Positions 196 through 33,226 of a stretch of DNA of 37,943 bases are shown in pieces. The translations under genes were made by a program, and so were the position numbers. Numbering within the stretch: position 1 is the stretch's first letter; the number at the start of each line of letters is the position of its first letter. Origin of the DNA: a virus; the IMG/VR virus record IMGVR_UViG_3300036854_000076, positions 1-37,943 of that record; one strand, 5' to 3'. The notes beneath the pieces were generated by a model. That model saw only the letters and a list, made by a program, of their open reading frames with translations, was not told the DNA's origin and ran no database searches.

Positions 196-263
196 CGTAA
201 CACCTCCCGGAGATTGACCGATGTGCCGTCAAGGCTGCCCGCCAGGCACCAACGCGCGCCGAC

Positions 264-292
264 TTGCACTTCGGCGCACCATCCGATACTCT
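264..292 (+). promoter_or_regulatory. Sigma70-like promoter of the zinc-motif gene, leaderless layout
   Basis: TTGCAC (264-269), a 17-base spacer and TACTCT (287-292). Only 8 bases separate the -10 box from the ATG at 301, so the expected transcription start falls on or next to the start codon. There is no purine-rich ribosome site in that gap. The same geometry occurs at three other genes in the window. Confidence 0.5.
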
Positions 293-300
293 GCGCCTAC

Positions 301-489
301 ATGAGGCCGTTCGACGTCGACACCCGAGTGAAGGCGGAGCAGATCGAGGCGCACCACCGGCGGTGCGGGCGCTGCCGCAGCCTGTACGAGGCGGCGCGCC
401 GGCTAGAGTCGCAGAGCGCGGTCGACGTCTGGCGGCGGGAGTTCTGGGCCTGCTGGAGCCGGCTGCACCCGCGCCGCCCGCCGAGCTAG
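301..489 (+). CDS. Small zinc-motif protein (anti-sigma zinc-finger-like), 62 aa
   Basis: The ATG at 301 is preferred over upstream in-frame starts because a promoter ends only 8 bases before it. Residues H18, C22 and C25 give the H-x3-C-x2-C pattern typical of zinc-binding anti-sigma domains, followed by an amphipathic helix (RSLYEAARRL) as in that family; the rest is basic and Trp-rich. The protein is far shorter than a complete anti-sigma factor and has no membrane span, so the resemblance could be limited to a zinc-stabilised helix. Its stop codon shares the palindrome CTAG (486-489) with the stop of the convergent integrase gene. Function is inferred only from the motif. Confidence 0.55.
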   Translation: MRPFDVDTRVKAEQIEAHHRRCGRCRSLYEAARRLESQSAVDVWRREFWACWSRLHPRRPPS

Positions 490-1316
490 CGGCCGAGCAG
501 CTGCCCGAGCTTAGCCGTCGCCGCGCGGAGGTCGCGCTCGTTGACGATCCTGTAGCGCCAGAAGACGTGGTCGGTCTTGTGCCCGGTGAGCAGCATCGCC
601 GTCTTGTGGTCGACGCCGGCGTTCACGAGGTTGCGGACGGCCGACCGCCGGAAGTCGTGGGGGAGGATCGTCTCTAGCCCGGCCGCCCGGCACGCGAGCC
701 GCCACGCCCCGTAGGCGTTCCGGATCGGCTTCCCGTTGAACCGGTGGAAGAGGTACCGCGCCGAGACCGGCGGCCGCTCCAGCTGGTGAAGGACGAGGGC
801 GCGGAGGCCGAGGCAGTCGAGCGGGAAGCGTCGGCTCTCGCGGTTCTTCGAGTCCCGCAGCGTGACCCAGCCGCCGGTCAGGTCGACGTCGGTCTTCAAG
901 AGCGGGAAGACCTCGTCGCGCATCCGCCAGCCGGTGACGTACGCGAACGTGAACGACCCCTGCAGCGCCTCCGGCAGCCTAGAGCAGGCCCGGTCGAAGT
1001 CCGGCATCTCGAGGAACCCGACCCGCGCCGGCGGGAGGGACAAGTCCTCCGGCATCGCGGGGACCCGGACGCGCGCCAGCTTGAGGGCGCGGCGGAGCGC
1101 GGCGAGCTCGGCGCGGACGGTCGCGTTCCCGGCCCCGCCCTCGTTCCGCGCGCCCCAGTAGCTCACCAGGTCGTCCTCGTCGACCGCTCCGACCTGGCGG
1201 CCGCCGAAGAACGGCGCGACGTGCTTCCGGACCCGGCGCTCGACCTCCGATAGCCCGCGGCGGCCGGAGAGGCGGTAGCGGACGAGGTAGCGGTCGAGGG
1301 CGTCTCCGATCGTCAC
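486..1316 (-). CDS. int: Tyrosine recombinase / phage integrase, 276 aa
   Basis: This is a site-specific recombinase of the lambda-Int/XerD superfamily, expected to integrate and excise the phage genome. The N-terminal ~95 residues form the helical core-binding domain. The catalytic domain carries R131 (in GWRMRDE), K157 (in SKNRES), the H220-x-x-R223 box (PHDFRR), H246 (LTGHK) and the nucleophile Y255 (WRYRI), so all catalytic positions are present and the length is normal. The GTG start at 1316 lies 6 bases after a TACACT -10 box, so the mRNA is probably leaderless and no Shine-Dalgarno site is present. It is transcribed alone towards the left edge. A second tyrosine recombinase lies at 32330. 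Confidence 0.93.
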   Translation of the reverse strand: MTIGDALDRYLVRYRLSGRRGLSEVERRVRKHVAPFFGGRQVGAVDEDDLVSYWGARNEGGAGNATVRAELAALRRALKLARVRVPAMPEDLSLPPARVGFLEMPDFDRACSRLPEALQGSFTFAYVTGWRMRDEVFPLLKTDVDLTGGWVTLRDSKNRESRRFPLDCLGLRALVLHQLERPPVSARYLFHRFNGKPIRNAYGAWRLACRAAGLETILPHDFRRSAVRNLVNAGVDHKTAMLLTGHKTDHVFWRYRIVNERDLRAATAKLGQLLGR

Positions 1317-1322
1317 TGCTGC

Positions 1323-1359
1323 AGTGTACCGGAGGCACCGCGCGGTGTCAAGCGGTGTC
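1323..1359 (-). promoter_or_regulatory. Integrase promoter with phased operator hexamers
   Basis: On the minus strand TTGACA (1351-1346), a 17-base spacer and TACACT (1328-1323) make a strong sigma70-type promoter. On the plus strand the hexamers GGCACC (1334), GGTGTC (1344) and GGTGTC (1354) start exactly 10 bp apart; the first two form a near-perfect 16-bp palindrome lying in the spacer, and the -35 box sits inside the repeats. This is the layout of a repressible promoter. Confidence 0.65.
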
Positions 1360-1406
1360 TGTGCTACACCGGAGGACGCCGCAGAACTGGGAGTTCTGCG
1401 CGGCTT

Positions 1407-1679
1407 CTAGTCGCAGTCGGAGTAGCAGTCGACGGCGCCGCCGAGGCTCTCGCGGCAGGTCGTCCGGCAGCTCGCCGGCTGGTGCGGCGCCGGGGCGGCT
1501 GGAGCGGCCGCGGCGGAGTTGTAGTACCTAGCCTCGGCCCGGTACAGGTCCCGTCGCGCGCCGTGTATCTCGCTCTCCCGGACGCCCCGCTGGAAGTTGA
1601 GGGCGGCCTGGTTGACGAGGTACCTATCAGACGCCGTACAGCCTGCGAGGATAAGGGAGAGGAGTAGGGTCGTTCGCAT
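1407..1679 (-). CDS. Small lipoprotein, about 90 aa
   Basis: The N-terminus has a short basic region, a hydrophobic stretch and a clear lipobox (LILAGC, Cys14), so this should be a lipid-anchored envelope protein. The mature part is charged, then has an Ala/Pro-rich linker and a C-terminal segment with four Cys (two C-x3-C pairs). The ATG at 1679 is chosen over TTG 1685 because it lies 6 bases after the promoter -10 box. It is beside the lysis genes, so an outer-membrane spanin subunit is one possibility. However, it has its own regulated promoter and no partner embedded with it, which fits a lysogeny-expressed surface lipoprotein (for example superinfection exclusion) equally well. No family recognised. 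Confidence 0.7.
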   Translation of the reverse strand: MRTTLLLSLILAGCTASDRYLVNQAALNFQRGVRESEIHGARRDLYRAEARYYNSAAAAPAAPAPHQPASCRTTCRESLGGAVDCYSDCD

Positions 1680-1685
1680 GCTCAA

Positions 1686-1743
1686 TCCCTACGCCCCCTC
1701 TCCCGTGCGTGTCAAGCGGTGCCGCCTGGTGCCGCCTGGTGCC
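1686..1743 (-). promoter_or_regulatory. Lipoprotein promoter with 10-bp phased direct repeats
   Basis: Minus strand: TTGACA (1715-1710), 18-base spacer, TAGGGA (1691-1686), then 6 bases to the ATG at 1679, predicting a leaderless mRNA. On the plus strand the hexamers CGTGTC (1708), GGTGCC (1718), GGTGCC (1728) and GGTGCC (1738) repeat every 10 bp, the first overlapping the -35 box. The remaining 1744-1849 before the late-operon end contains no gene I can support; a GGCCG-type hairpin at about 1828-1845 could help to end the late transcript. Confidence 0.6.
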
Positions 1744-5700: not shown

Positions 5701-6224
5701 CCTATAACAGCGCCGCCGGCCGCGCCCGCGGCTACCTCCCCGGCAGTCGGCAGGCGGCCCTCGGCGATCCCCGTCTGGACCCCGGTCGACAGGACGCCCT
5801 GCGTCACGCCCTCCGCGGCCCCGAGACCGATCTTCGCGCCGGCGGTCGCGGCCCGGGCGCCGAGACGGGCGAACGGGCCGGCCGGGAGCGCCCCGACCGC
5901 GGCGCCGGCGGCGACCCGGGCCGGGGAGACCTCCTCGCCGAGGATACTCTCGGCCGCCGCCTCGCCGAGCGCGCCGCCAGCGGCCCCACCGCCGGCCGCC
6001 GCCAGGAGTGCGCCGGGCCCGGTCGGGGCCGCGGCGAGCCCGGCTAGGCCCGCGCCGACGATCGGGGCCGCGACCCGGATGCCGAGTGCCGCGCTGCGTC
6101 GGAGGAGGCCGGGCCCCTCTGCCGCCGGCTCCTCACCGAACGCGGCCGCGGCCTCGTCGATGTCCGCCTCGGTCGGCTCCCGGGAGAAGTCGACCTCGCG
6201 GCCGTTCACCAGGTAGCGGGGCAC
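2733..6224 (-). CDS. Large internal virion (DNA-ejection) protein with C-terminal lytic transglycosylase, 1163 aa
   Basis: The C-terminal ~135 residues are an SLT-type lytic transglycosylase: catalytic Glu at about residue 1055 in AYNESRFNPDAVG, then GAMQLLP and the AARLYHGG/AAYGEQV motifs, in the usual order. The N-terminus begins with a short MPRYLVNGREVDF motif common in phage internal proteins, followed by a Gly/Ala-rich, strongly hydrophobic stretch (residues ~40-200) that may insert into membranes. The long central part is helical. Such proteins are ejected with the DNA and open the cell wall for short-tailed phages. Start is GTG, one base after the upstream stop. Confidence 0.88.
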   Translation of the reverse strand: MPRYLVNGREVDFSREPTEADIDEAAAAFGEEPAAEGPGLLRRSAALGIRVAAPIVGAGLAGLAAAPTGPGALLAAAGGGAAGGALGEAAAESILGEEVSPARVAAGAAVGALPAGPFARLGARAATAGAKIGLGAAEGVTQGVLSTGVQTGIAEGRLPTAGEVAAGAAGGAVIGGAVGGVAAKLGAREAPAAAKTVSGEGDDVVSALARTGKSEPFKKVPAEGEVPPARPVRAGRAAEADEFVDRSFADSSDEARAVIKKVYADNPDLVAEQVRGEVPFERTRAQAERLAFDPSDVAPGMNPNAEQTLAARNLVAALADKVARTHDDLRAAPGDRGLSETLVKAHEDLVDATVAVRGFRAEQGRALNALKIKAEAGAAKVPSTVRFIETANRYGVGREDILAALGRAGDDPLRQYRELVNLARPDFRETIRGLYVTNLLTNPKTFERNLVGNALRVVEDVALKPVAAGVDVLRSAVTGAPRQVRLGESATSAVAAVKSLPSAFRAAVQVLKQGFTDEAAHRMAFSEGKFEMPREFGGVLRPLNVVGRSLNATDIFFRSISAAMTRDAGAYARAYGQAAKEGLRGPTLRDRVSDLMAEIATNPPRELLDEIETASARSVFREGSQFALTLDRLIQTMPAPFRAATRIVMPFIRTPANIIAQGFQHTPAGFVTKKGLEGGRTGAMEQARAALGTTLLAPLVYLAAHDQMTGSAPTDDAGKRDAFLAEHPENSVKVGQTWYQYSDLGPLAIPMSLVSNSVQAWEATGKEPGDSDALALTKQAFNAMLASGQTMFDASYLSGLGELLDAVQNPRQSGEKFVQRRLASFVPGQGLLRAAAQVESPVVRQPKTLGEAIQANVPGYQAGVPPRLDAFGQPVTRGDVGARALLIPTSKTPAADPVREELARLGVEVEPAKSAKDVNVGGRVGKVALDRGGDFAVRQARGVTTRFYVARAMASPIYQAADDERRAEIVRRQIRRAGSFVTERARFHLRRGNPLVTENLVPRQVLEGAPTPPAAAPAALAPVKGPKTPLDPIFSEVAEATGVDPTFLKAVAYNESRFNPDAVGPETRWGRAVGAMQLLPSTFQAYAARAADLLGRAPDIRNALDNVLVSALYYRDILGSTSDAAEAARLYHGGPNLELHGPKTAAYGEQVASKFREWRGARP

Positions 6225-12740: not shown

Positions 12741-13088
12741 CTAGATGAAGAGGACCTTAAGCCCGGCGACCGCCGCACCCGCAGTCAGGACGAATGAGGT
12801 GCTTGTCCCTGCCTCCCGGGAGAAGACCGTCGGCGCGTTCGCGTCGAGCGCGATCCCGACGTCGCCGGAAACGCCCTTCAAGATCAGCGTCGCGATGTTA
12901 GTCACCGGAGGGACGATGATAACGAGTGACGCCTTGTCGGGAACGGTGATCGTATTCGCGCCGCTCGCGAGGTTGAAGACCGAGCTGGTCGCGCCGTCCG
13001 TGATCAACCACGAGAGGCTGATCTTGCTCGAGCCCTCCGGCTCCCCGGCGAGCTCGCCGGTCAGGTAGATCGTTCCCGTTACGGCCAT
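12741..13088 (-). CDS. Small beta-structured virion protein, 115 aa
   Basis: A short beta-rich protein with repeated Val/Ile-Thr strands. It shares a recognisable core with the product of 28036-28362: an ASG-x-N-x-I-x-VP segment, then a (V/L)IIVP strand and an LILKG(V/L)(S/T)GD motif at the same relative positions. The two are probable paralogues 15 kb apart in the same operon. It could be a tail or head decoration component. Ribosome site GGAGG lies before the ATG. Confidence 0.65.
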   Translation of the reverse strand: MAVTGTIYLTGELAGEPEGSSKISLSWLITDGATSSVFNLASGANTITVPDKASLVIIVPPVTNIATLILKGVSGDVGIALDANAPTVFSREAGTSTSFVLTAGAAVAGLKVLFI

Positions 13089-28362: not shown

Positions 28363-28406
28363 GGGGTCTCCCTCCAGGGTGCGCCGGAGCGGCGCGAATC
28401 GTCAGG

Positions 28407-28475
28407 GTGAGGGCCGGACTCGAACCGGATCACGCGATCCACAGTCGCGCGCTCTAACCATTGAGCTACCCTCAC
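28407..28475 (-). tRNA. tRNA-His (anticodon GTG), short
   Basis: Minus strand cloverleaf: 7-bp acceptor stem (GTGAGGG with CCCTCAC), D-arm with GCTC/GAGC, 5-bp anticodon stem CGCGA/TCGCG closing the loop CTGTGGA (anticodon GTG), and a T-loop TTCGAGT on a 4-bp stem. It is 69 bases, because the variable region and T-stem are each a base or so short. CCA is not encoded. The base before the acceptor is T, so the extra G-1 usual for tRNA-His would have to be added or be counted within the stem. Confidence 0.82.
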
Positions 28476-29148: not shown

Positions 29149-29224
29149 TGGATGCGGAGGCGGGAATCGAACGCCGCGACCTCCGGGTTATGAGCCCGGC
29201 GCGCTACCTCTGCGCTACTCCGCG
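29149..29224 (-). tRNA. Initiator-type tRNA-fMet (anticodon CAT), CCA encoded
   Basis: Acceptor CGCGGAG pairs with CTCCGCA except for the first position, giving the C1-A72 mismatch that marks bacterial initiator tRNA. The anticodon stem CCGGG/CCCGG supplies the three consecutive G-C pairs next to the loop CTCATAA. D-arm is GCGC/GCGC. T73 and CCA (29151-29149) are encoded. The T-stem GCGG-C-G / CCCGC contains one extra, bulged C, an abnormal feature for a functional tRNA. Confidence 0.85.
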
Positions 29225-29269: not shown

Positions 29270-29680
29270 CTAAGCCGACGCGGATTCGATCTGCCTGAGG
29301 TCGGTGATCCCGAGCGCGCGGACCGCGGTGACGACGATCTGGCGCAGCTCAACCTCGCTCATGCTCGAGAGGTCCGGCCGGCTGTCCGGCCCGCCGCTGA
29401 GGAACGAGCGGAGGCGGGAGAGCTCGTCGACGGCCTTCACTAGGTTGAGCCCGGCCTTGACGAAGCGGTCGTAGACGATCGAGAGGCGCTCGGTGTCCTC
29501 GAACGCCTCGTCCGACCCCGCGAGCGCCGTCTTGAGCTTCTCTAGGAGGGCGGGGAGCTGGTCGCTCACCGACTCCGAGAGCTCGATGTTCCGCTCGGCG
29601 ACGCCGACGTACCGGCGGACGCTCTTGTCGAGGGAGGCCGCGTCGTACGCTACGAGCGGCCCAGGTCGCGCGCTGGACAC
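29270..29680 (-). CDS. First gene of the late operon, helical protein, 136 aa
   Basis: The open frame extends to 29743, but the promoter -10 box ends at 29689, so the GTG at 29680, 8 bases later, is the best start and the mRNA would be leaderless. The protein is helical and acidic, with Leu-rich segments (DQLPALLEKLKTALAGS, FVKAGLNLVKAVDELSRL) and a C-terminal ELRQIVVTAVRALGITDL. Size and position would allow a small terminase subunit, but no DNA-binding helix-turn-helix is evident. A scaffold-like or regulatory role is equally possible. Confidence 0.6.
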   Translation of the reverse strand: MSSARPGPLVAYDAASLDKSVRRYVGVAERNIELSESVSDQLPALLEKLKTALAGSDEAFEDTERLSIVYDRFVKAGLNLVKAVDELSRLRSFLSGGPDSRPDLSSMSEVELRQIVVTAVRALGITDLRQIESASA

Positions 29681-29688
29681 AGGGGGGC

Positions 29689-29733
29689 AGTGTATCATAA
29701 CAGCCCGGTGTGTGTCAAGCACCGTGCGGTGCC
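29689..29733 (-). promoter_or_regulatory. Late promoter with adjacent operator
   Basis: Minus strand TTGACA (29718-29713), 18-base spacer, TACACT (29694-29689). Overlapping and upstream of the -35 is AGCACC-GTGC-GGTGCC (plus strand 29718-29733), an inverted pair of operator hexamers with the same 4-base gap as at the integrase promoter. It should start the long leftward virion/lysis transcript. Confidence 0.6.
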
Positions 29734-30041: not shown

Positions 30042-30197
30042 TCAGTCGCTGCTAGATTGCGAGGCTAGCCCCTCAACCAGCGCGAGGACGAGAAGCGCCC
30101 GTGTGTCAATGCCTAACCGAGTGGCGAGCCGCTGTGCTCTCGCTAGCACGTCGCGGCTCAACCCCTCATCATCCTGCCGCCGCAACGGCTTCGCCAT
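30042..30197 (-). CDS. Ribbon-helix-helix-like small protein, 51 aa
   Basis: After a basic N-terminal strand region (AKPLRRQDDEGL) comes a helix-turn-helix pair LSRDVLARAQRLATRLGIDTRALLVLALVEGL, the arrangement of Arc/CopG repressors. The strand is less typical than in its neighbour, so assignment is cautious. GGAGGTAAACGAC precedes the ATG. It is 5 bases downstream of a second RHH gene, an arrangement recalling the arc-mnt type of immunity region. Confidence 0.6.
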   Translation of the reverse strand: MAKPLRRQDDEGLSRDVLARAQRLATRLGIDTRALLVLALVEGLASQSSSD

Positions 30198-30202
30198 GTC
30201 GT

Positions 30203-30406
30203 TTACCTCCGAGGTGGCGGATGCAGCGGGCGTGCCACTCCGAGGCGCTCCTCTAGCTTCGCTAGTCCTTCCTCGACGGCTAAGCGGAGCACCTCGCCGG
30301 GCTTGCGGCGGTCGCGCACCGCAATCTCCTCGGCCCGAGCGACGAGCTCGTCGGGAAGCCATAGGTTTTTCCGGCGCTTCCCCTTCGGCGTCTGCTTCTT
30401 AGCCAT
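30203..30406 (-). CDS. Ribbon-helix-helix transcriptional repressor, 67 aa
   Basis: Basic lead (KKQTPKGKRRK), a strand NLWLP, helix DELVARAEEIAVRDRR, turn, helix KPGEVLRLAVEEGLAKLEERL: the full Arc/CopG/MetJ fold. Such proteins bind as dimers to short repeated half-sites. ATG 30406 has a GGAGG site; an in-frame ATG at 30433 would add nine residues and overlaps the stop of the micro-ORF at 30430 by four bases. It is transcribed from the leftward member of the divergent promoter pair and is the best candidate for the phage repressor acting on the GRCACC-type operators. Confidence 0.75.
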   Translation of the reverse strand: MAKKQTPKGKRRKNLWLPDELVARAEEIAVRDRRKPGEVLRLAVEEGLAKLEERLGVARPLHPPPRR

Positions 30407-30477: not shown

Positions 30478-30507
30478 TCTGTACCACCGCGCGGGGGTAC
30501 TTGACAA
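30478..30507 (-). promoter_or_regulatory. Leftward repressor promoter
   Basis: TTGTCA (30507-30502), 18-base spacer, TACAGA (30483-30478), reading into the ribbon-helix-helix genes. Its -35 hexamer overlaps the rightward -35 in the palindrome TTGACAA, so RNA polymerase cannot occupy both at once. Confidence 0.5.
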
Positions 30508-30551
30508 CCCCTGAGTGCCGGTGTTACACACTCTGGTGCCTGGCGAGCACC
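30501..30551 (+). promoter_or_regulatory. Rightward early promoter with flanking operator-like repeats
   Basis: TTGACA (30501-30506), 17-base spacer, TTACAC (30524-30529; TACACA one base later also fits). Downstream lies GGTGC-N7-GCACC (30535-30551) and upstream GGTGC (30472-30476). It should drive the early operon beginning at 30536/30613. Confidence 0.55.
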
Positions 30552-30616
30552 TTGCAGTGCAGACGGGCAGCGGCAATCAAGCCGCCAGTAGCGAGTCGGA
30601 GGTCGAGAACCAATGA
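30536..30616 (+). CDS. Leaderless 26-aa leader ORF of the early operon
   Basis: GTG at 30536 is 6 bases after the -10 box, matching the geometry of the other leaderless genes. The ORF of 26 codons ends in TGA that overlaps the next ATG by four bases (ATGA, 30613-30616). The peptide is polar and Ser/Glu-rich without recognisable motif. It mirrors the 13-aa leader on the opposite side of the divergent promoters. Confidence 0.4.
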   Translation: MPGEHLAVQTGSGNQAASSESEVENQ

Positions 30617-32134: not shown

Positions 32135-32333
32135 CAATGGGACGTCCGACATAGTGATCGAAGCGACCATCTGCAAGGGACCGCCGCACGGGCCGCACCG
32201 CAACCCGTGCCACCTCGACGAGGCCCGCTGCTCGCTCTGCGGCCGGACGCGCCCGCACACGATCCGGCGGCTGAACCGGGAGAGGCGGCCGGTGCTATGT
32301 GACAAGTGCCATAGCGAGGAGCAACCCCGCTGA
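32112..32333 (+). CDS. Zinc-ribbon protein, 73 aa
   Basis: AAGGAG precedes the ATG. The C-terminal half carries CSLCG and CDKCH, two knuckles about 20 residues apart around RRLNRERR, so a nucleic-acid-binding zinc ribbon is likely. Its TGA overlaps the CTG start of the recombinase downstream (CTGA), which suggests coupled translation. Confidence 0.6.
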   Translation: MEPTAAASNGTSDIVIEATICKGPPHGPHRNPCHLDEARCSLCGRTRPHTIRRLNRERRPVLCDKCHSEEQPR

Positions 32334-33220
32334 CGCCGGTCGACATTTACCTCGGGACCCTCGCGCCGTCCTCGCGCCGCGTCATCATCAGCGACCTCAA
32401 CAGGCTCGCCCAGGATGCCTTTCCTGGCGCATTAGAGCCGGTTACAGACCTTCCATGGGACACTCTAGGGGTAGACCACTGGGTCGCCGTCCGGGAGGCC
32501 GTAGCGCGCGCCTACGCGCCGGCAACGGCTAACCGGATGCTCGCCGCCGCCAAGGGTGTCATCCGCGCCACCTGGCGTGCCGGCCTCGTCACATGGGACG
32601 TCCAACTGCGCCTCCTCGCCTCGCTGCCGGCGGTCCGCGGCGGCCGGGTCACCAGGGGGCGAGCCCTGACCTGGCACGAGTTCGAGAAGCTACTCGCCGC
32701 CGCCAGGGGGTACGAGGAGCGGGCCCTCCTAGCGACCCTCGCAGGTGCGGGGTGCCGGCGGGCCGAGGTCCTCGCCCTGACCTGGGACCGGTTCACCCGC
32801 CACGATCGGACGTTCTACCTTCGGGTCCTCGGGAAGGGGAACAAGGAGCGCCGGCTGCGGGTCCCGTCGTGGGTCGCGAGCGCCCTCTCGTCGTGGCGGA
32901 CCCGCTGCCCCGACCGCGAGCGCATCTTCCGGTGGCGGAACACCGACAGCGTCCGCGACGTCGTCGTCGCCAGCGCCGCTCGAGCCGGCCTCGGCCCGCT
33001 CGCGCCGCACGACATGCGCCGGACGTTCTACGCCCTCTGCTGCCGGAGCGGGATGAGGGACCGGGACATCCAGCGGGCGATGGGGCACGCGTCGATCTCG
33101 ACGACGATGAAGTACGACCGCAGAGGAGACGAGGAGGCTCTTGCCGAGATGTCCCGGCTAGATAGCCTCGCCGCCGATGGTGCCGCAGGGGCACCGCTTG
33201 ACACCAAGCGGCGCCGCTGA
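32330..33220 (+). CDS. Second tyrosine recombinase (XerC/D-like), 296 aa, probable CTG start
   Basis: Full-length XerC/D-type recombinase. Core-binding N-terminal domain (residues ~1-100), catalytic R143 (AGCRRAEVLAL), K169/K172 (GKGNKERR), H227-x-x-R230 (PHDMRR), H253 (MGHASISTT) and nucleophile Y262 (MKYDR). No ATG, GTG or TTG exists in frame between the upstream in-frame stop and ATG 32537, which would delete most of the N-terminal domain. CTG at 32330 gives the complete protein, has GAGGAG 9 bases upstream and overlaps the previous stop as CTGA. It could resolve genome dimers, act at a second att site, or control excision. The stop is in the next promoter. Confidence 0.85.
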   Translation: MTPVDIYLGTLAPSSRRVIISDLNRLAQDAFPGALEPVTDLPWDTLGVDHWVAVREAVARAYAPATANRMLAAAKGVIRATWRAGLVTWDVQLRLLASLPAVRGGRVTRGRALTWHEFEKLLAAARGYEERALLATLAGAGCRRAEVLALTWDRFTRHDRTFYLRVLGKGNKERRLRVPSWVASALSSWRTRCPDRERIFRWRNTDSVRDVVVASAARAGLGPLAPHDMRRTFYALCCRSGMRDRDIQRAMGHASISTTMKYDRRGDEEALAEMSRLDSLAADGAAGAPLDTKRRR

Positions 33221-33226
33221 TACACT
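33179..33226 (+). promoter_or_regulatory. Promoter/operator at the end of recombinase 2
   Basis: TTGACA (33198-33203), 17-base spacer, TACACT (33221-33226). Operator hexamers: GGTGCC (33179), GGCACC (33190) and GACACC (33200), the last two 10 bp apart and embedding the -35; CCGCTT-N6-AAGCGG (33194-33211) is a further palindrome. Identical core CACCGCTTGACAC occurs at the integrase and lipoprotein promoters. Here the first gene is leadered, about 55 bases downstream. Confidence 0.62.

Follow-up and report, generated by a model that had tools for sequence, protein, structure and literature searches.

Helically phased six-base-pair words at several promoters of a soil phage: putative operators of one lysogeny-type regulator

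The window analysed here is the whole of a viral contig of 37,943 bp (69% G+C), from a soil phage family for which no isolated close relative was found in this work. Its leftward genes comprise a tail-assembly-chaperone-like gene (start at 29680, PHROG E 0.0026), terminase, portal, capsid, a predicted endolysin, a lipoprotein and the tyrosine recombinase INT1. Among the rightward genes, from 30613 on, are those of another tyrosine recombinase (INT2) and of a primase-polymerase. tRNA-His and tRNA-Met genes, at 28405-28475 and 29153-29223 on the minus strand, lie inside the late operon. For INT2 (32330-33220) the start codon is apparently CTG (GCTGACG), in overlap with the stop codon of the preceding gene; a relative, G001, has ATG there. 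The integrase and lipoprotein genes and the sequences ahead of them are as follows.

486-1316, minus strand: INT1, tyrosine recombinase of 276 aa (Pfam PF00589, 4.7e-15).
1323-1351, minus strand: integrase promoter (Pint); -35 box TTGACA at 1351-1346, 17-bp spacer, -10 box TACACT at 1328-1323.
1334-1359, minus strand: putative operator array of Pint; GACACC at 1354-1359 and 1344-1349 and GGTGCC at 1334-1339 (minus-strand letters), at an exact 10-bp pitch.
1407-1679, minus strand: small predicted lipoprotein of 90 aa, with the signal MRTTLLLSLILAGC.
1686-1715, minus strand: lipoprotein promoter (Plipo); TTGACA at 1715-1710, 18-bp spacer, weak -10 box TAGGGA at 1691-1686.
1708-1743, minus strand: putative operator array of Plipo; direct repeats of GGCACC at 1738, 1728 and 1718 and an imperfect GACACG at 1708, at an exact 10-bp pitch.

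INT1 begins at the core-binding domain and is without the N-terminal arm-binding domain, as its domains were read by eye. Its GTG start (1316) and the ATG of the lipoprotein (1679) each lie 6 nt past the -10 box of their promoters; since the int, lipoprotein and late starts (1316, 1679 and 29680) all fall 6-8 nt after a -10 box, the three mRNAs are predicted to be leaderless, which may be a hint at the host group. Further candidate promoters, with the words that accompany them, are scattered through the rest of the window.

33198-33226, plus strand: promoter P33198, TTGACA-17-TACACT, upstream of 33287, 33475, 33692 and the primase gene.
33179-33215, plus strand: putative operator array of P33198; GGTGCC at 33179, GGCACC at 33190, GACACC at 33200 (over the -35 box) and GGCGCC at 33210.
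29689-29718, minus strand: late promoter, TTGACA-18-TACACT; in-frame GTG start at 29680, predicted leaderless.
29718-29733, minus strand: putative late operator, the inverted pair GGCACC-N4-GGTGCT immediately upstream of the late -35 box.
30501-30551, plus strand: rightward early promoter, TTGACA-18-TACACA; loose words downstream, GGTGCC at 30535 and AGCACC at 30546.
245-292, plus strand: weak sixth candidate promoter, TTGCAC-17-TACTCT at 264; GGCACC at 245 and CGCACC at 275, about 10 bp in phase.

A first-pass annotation of this DNA had described hexamers of the form GRCACC/GGTGYC in 10-bp phase at Pint, Plipo and P33198. The words at 1334, 1344 and 1354, at 1718, 1728 and 1738, and at 33190 and 33200 indeed have exactly these letters and exactly these steps. 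The further lipoprotein copy proposed at 1708 keeps the phase and matches the word at five of six letters (CGTGTC, or GACACG on the minus strand). Two words can be added to that list, GGTGCC at 33179 and GGCGCC at 33210, at 11 and 10 bp respectively, in an array that sits within the 3′ end of the INT2 gene. The shared core around the -35 box was confirmed as well: CACCGCTTGACAC has three copies, all at promoters, and none elsewhere in the window. The words keep a common register relative to TTGACA at Pint, Plipo and P33198, where the -35 box itself forms a word, TT-GACACC (GACACG at Plipo, one letter off). CTTGACA occurs five times in the window, each time as the -35 box of a candidate promoter: three of these boxes carry arrays, the late one carries an inverted pair, and the early one has loose words only, with no strict phased array there in the register test. 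The related pair that had been claimed for the late promoter (AGCACC at 29718, GGTGCC at 29728) exists, but it stands 2 bp off the register of the other three promoters. Word orientation is mixed at 1334/1344, 33179/33190 and 29718/29728, and judging from these letters the words appear to be usable in either orientation.

Pairs of GRCACC/GGTGYC at exactly 10 bp number five in the window and are confined to Pint, Plipo and P33198. In a scan of 20,111 hexamer classes by 23 distances (7-40, leaving out multiples of 3 because codon periodicity dominates there), these five pairs, against 0.098 expected, came out at the top (log10P -7.16, runner-up -4.6; Bonferroni about 0.03). Third-order Markov simulations (300 runs) gave a mean of 0.083 such pairs and a maximum of 2. 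Furthermore, at least two phased words in the five tested registers were found at 100 of 200,000 random positions versus three of six promoters. The frequency of the hexamer in coding DNA, named beforehand as a check on the regulatory reading, speaks mildly for it: 14 of the 61 single words are non-coding versus 5.7 expected (P 0.001), but the other 47 lie in coding DNA, and a lone word therefore carries little meaning. The signal resides in phasing and location, not in word count.

Searches of IMG/VR yielded four relatives: G001 and G002 (about 42 kb each), a fragment, G003, and G004 (39 kb, incomplete). G001 and G002 are close to the window (MCP 92 and 91%, terminase 80 and 77% identity) and retain the structural genes, INT2 and the primase. 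In both, INT1 has no orthologue-level match, RHH1 and RHH2 (two small proteins considered below) and the lipoprotein are unmatched, and no phased array was found at the promoters. The late promoter of G001 reads GTACGTGAGGC-TTGACACA where that of the window reads GTACGTGAGGC-ACCGCACGGTGC-TTGACACA, the two otherwise matching. The 12 bp missing in G001, ACCGCACGGTGC, are the late word pair, a difference that rests on exact string comparison (MAFFT put the gap elsewhere). The gene behind the G001 equivalent of P33198 contains a run of coding tandem repeats of about 12 bp, encoding SAAx units (L004 9080-9260).

G004 is a more distant relative (69% identity to the window in MCP, 51% in terminase and 42% in INT1, which is kept at full length) that keeps the layout and spells it with another word. 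At all three of its CTTGNNN-17/18-TANNNT promoters, namely the late one (1171), that of int (26202) and a replication-side one (35646, minus strand), the -35 box lies within GCTTGC, with a companion word (GCTGGC, GCCAGC or GCTTGC) 10 bp up- or downstream. Moreover, a GCTTGC-N4-GCTGGC pair stands ahead of the first early gene. In an unbiased one-mismatch scan of this genome at 10 bp, GCAAGC/GCTTGC was the best class that is not codon-periodic (10 against 1.0, log10P -6.9); the two-letter-class scan placed the 10-bp distance second (log10P -5.7), which is not significant alone. Two further phased pairs were discarded as operators, one at 5720, which falls in lipobox coding sequence, and one at 12857, which may form a hairpin ahead of the MCP gene. 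Among the four genomes compared (the window, G001, G002 and G004), phased words are present in the two that have INT1 and absent from the two that do not, a pattern that is suggestive and, with so few genomes, no proof.

A sequence resembling a tRNA 3′ end adjoins the G004 integrase (L043 6140-6195) and is probably an attachment site; no complete tRNA is detected there by ARAGORN. A leader hairpin, GCGGC-AATCAA-GCCGC, precedes the first early gene (30569-30586, plus strand) and is identical in G004 (L042 677-693). An exact IMG/VR scan places it also in the apparently non-coding 5′ leaders of about 12 other phages of differing G+C; it matches no Rfam family, and the scan yielded no further member of the phage family. 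Thirteen IMG/VR contigs carrying CACCGCTTGACAC and a -10 box were set aside as array relatives, the phased flanking words being absent; the INT1 relatives G006-G008 fall outside the family in other respects. No prophage turned up in two genome scans that used terminase and MCP alignments.

Two small genes lie between the late promoter and the early one, and their products are candidates for the two ribbon-helix-helix (RHH) proteins named in the first-pass annotation.

30203-30406, minus strand: RHH1, 67 aa, best candidate for the binder (AlphaFold2 pLDDT 76).
30042-30197, minus strand: RHH2, 51 aa, two helices in the AlphaFold2 model.

The single-sequence AlphaFold2 model of RHH1 has an extended N-terminus followed by two helices, and its PDB matches are nearly all ribbon-helix-helix proteins (Rv0298, CopASO, AtaR, PutA, CopG, omega and Arc), with low scores (best Z 4.5, Foldseek E about 0.5) over residues 12-57. 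Sub-threshold sequence matches point the same way: PHROG 7325, a CopG-like repressor (E 0.089), and the antitoxin EndoAI (E 0.46, in the expected stretch). By predicted fold and weak scores, then, RHH1 resembles this class. By analogy with the Arc structure, R12, N14 and W16 of its strand would face the DNA, and an arginine pair would suit the outer GG/CC of the word. Pfam RHH_1 matches neither RHH1 nor any protein of G004, G001 or G002, and no relatives of RHH1 were found in viral_contigs or among isolated phages. The assignment of RHH2 to the class is doubtful; it has an acidic N-terminal segment in place of the DNA-contacting strand and might act as a partner of RHH1 or as its antagonist. 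In G004, whose contig is incomplete around the primase and early genes, no RHH gene could be recognised, and a comparison of ten of its small proteins with PHROGs found no regulator. HTH_3 is unmatched in the window, G001, G002 and G004, a result that leaves room for other HTH types.

We consider it somewhat probable (about 58%) that a single lysogeny-type regulator of the phage uses the arrays as operators, its word lying over the -35 box and differing between phages. The regulator, the sign of its regulation and lysogeny itself are what we infer. RHH1 is the likeliest binder of the arrays, a step to which, taken alone, we give slightly less than even odds. The 6-bp word is pseudo-palindromic (GG-YR-CC, with the variant GACACC), and one dimer would be bound per word in either orientation; the constant pitch with mixed orientation suits a symmetric dimer. 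Because one word overlaps the -35 hexamer (TT-GACACC), binding would exclude RNA polymerase, and the int and replication-side promoters would be shut. The single inverted pair beside the late -35 box, together with the operators over the int and replication -35 boxes, would fit repression by cooperative dimers. At Plipo the words are stacked almost wholly upstream of the -35 box, and bound protein could either repress or activate there; given this upstream position and the weak -10 box, activation in a lysogen is possible.

For a lysogeny-type regulator count the top rank of the 10-bp pair signal, the register common to three promoters, the late promoter of G001 with the 12-bp pair missing, the match of the RHH1 model to ribbon-helix-helix proteins, the absence of the arrays from G001 and G002 along with INT1, RHH1, RHH2 and the lipoprotein, and the same layout in other letters in G004, where INT1 is kept. 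Against it count the low fold scores of RHH1, the lack of a Pfam RHH_1 match and of an RHH gene in G004, the early promoter without a strict array, the late pair out of register, the two-letter-class result in G004, not significant alone, the coding location of its pair at 5720, and the restriction of the comparison to four genomes. The proposal in the first-pass annotation of one regulon connecting integration, a lipoprotein, early and late genes thus survives in part: the int, lipoprotein and replication-side promoters are linked and the comparison with G001, G002 and G004 fits lysogeny, but the late pair is weak and the early promoter lacks a strict array.

The strongest competing account also takes the arrays for operators and assigns them to another protein, either an unrecognised phage regulator or a host winged-helix factor of OmpR or SARP type reading direct repeats of about 10-11 bp. 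SARP/OmpR-type promoters carry short direct repeats in tandem at the -35 region, spaced by about one helix turn and usually by 11 bp. Pint, Plipo and P33198 have direct core repeats, G004 has the layout without a recognised RHH gene, and several early proteins have no family match. However, the pitch here is 10 bp, not 11, and inverted words occur at the same pitch (1334 versus 1344, 33179, the late pair), which readers of direct repeats do not use; we regard another binder as rather unlikely. Still less probable is that the three promoters are copies of one duplicated promoter, with a core owed to shared ancestry and the -35 consensus and no regulator involved. The 13-mer core, TTGACA included, is the same in all three, as duplication would have it, but flanks, spacers and -10 regions differ, the N4 spacers of the further phased words beyond the core are unrelated, G004 has the layout with unrelated letters, and G001 kept its late promoter while lacking the words.

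We give very little credence to an asymmetric operator of 13-16 bp (CACCGCTTGACAC) read by a monomeric two-domain repressor like that of cluster A mycobacteriophages: the core is asymmetric and overlaps CTTGACA, much as cluster A sites overlap promoters, but those exceed 20 and lie mostly outside promoters, whereas here the three exact cores are all at promoters, extra words occur in both orientations and HTH_3 is unmatched. That the words are arm-type binding sites of INT1 is scarcely credible, even though the arrays track INT1 (the window and G004 have both, G001 and G002 neither), since INT1 is without an arm-binding domain and words also stand at the late and replication promoters, far from int.

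Returning to operators of one lysogeny-type regulator, a more specific proposal can be made, if only tentatively. Immunity in this family of soil phages would consist in a 6-bp word per helical turn over the -35 box, with relatives exchanging the word (GG-YR-CC in the window, GC-WK-GC in G004) but keeping the layout and the promoters targeted, and with its loss alongside the integrase module elsewhere; this would be the array-type operator code by which a minimal ribbon-helix-helix repressor governs lysogeny. If true, the immunity regulator of a phage family would be recognisable from DNA alone, through its int, late and replication arrays; the window word, the G004 word and the genomes with no word would form a natural series for operator-regulator co-change; and phage lysogeny would be run by tandem-word operators, a kind known chiefly from the control of plasmids and toxin-antitoxin systems.

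Tandem words bound by RHH dimers are already known, and the window, too, has a short word that recurs at helical pitch at its promoters; it is a putative member of this class. Arc, CopG, omega/ParB of pSM19035 and RelB offer the likeness, with dimers bound cooperatively on short words along one DNA face, in mixed orientation. RelB binds four 6-bp repeats (PMC2812701), omega of pSM19035 reads contiguous heptads in either orientation (PMC9499535) and CopG binds DNA in a chain-like manner (PMC8251345). With omega the repeats measure 7 bp and leave no gaps, and with RelB the hexads fill contiguous 12-bp half-sites, whereas the window words are 6 bp with free 4-bp spacers. Here, unlike in the RelB, CopG and omega operators, the -35 box supplies one of the words, and the arrays serve several dispersed phage promoters. 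Operators of the lambda type (cI/cro) are palindromic and read by an HTH_3 repressor; the arrays of the window are made of tandem words, not of single palindromes. Cluster A mycobacteriophages (L5 gp71 type) share with the window one repressor site at several places, an operator at the early promoter and letters that diverge between relatives, a divergence that makes related phages heteroimmune (PMC6550527). There, however, a monomer binds an asymmetric site of 13 bp, which has more than 20 copies per genome, mostly outside promoters (PMC9283540, PMC6550527). A set of at least 20 sites, most of them outside promoters and oriented with transcription, is not what the window holds: its arrays are phased, multi-word and confined to promoters, with the exact core in three copies.
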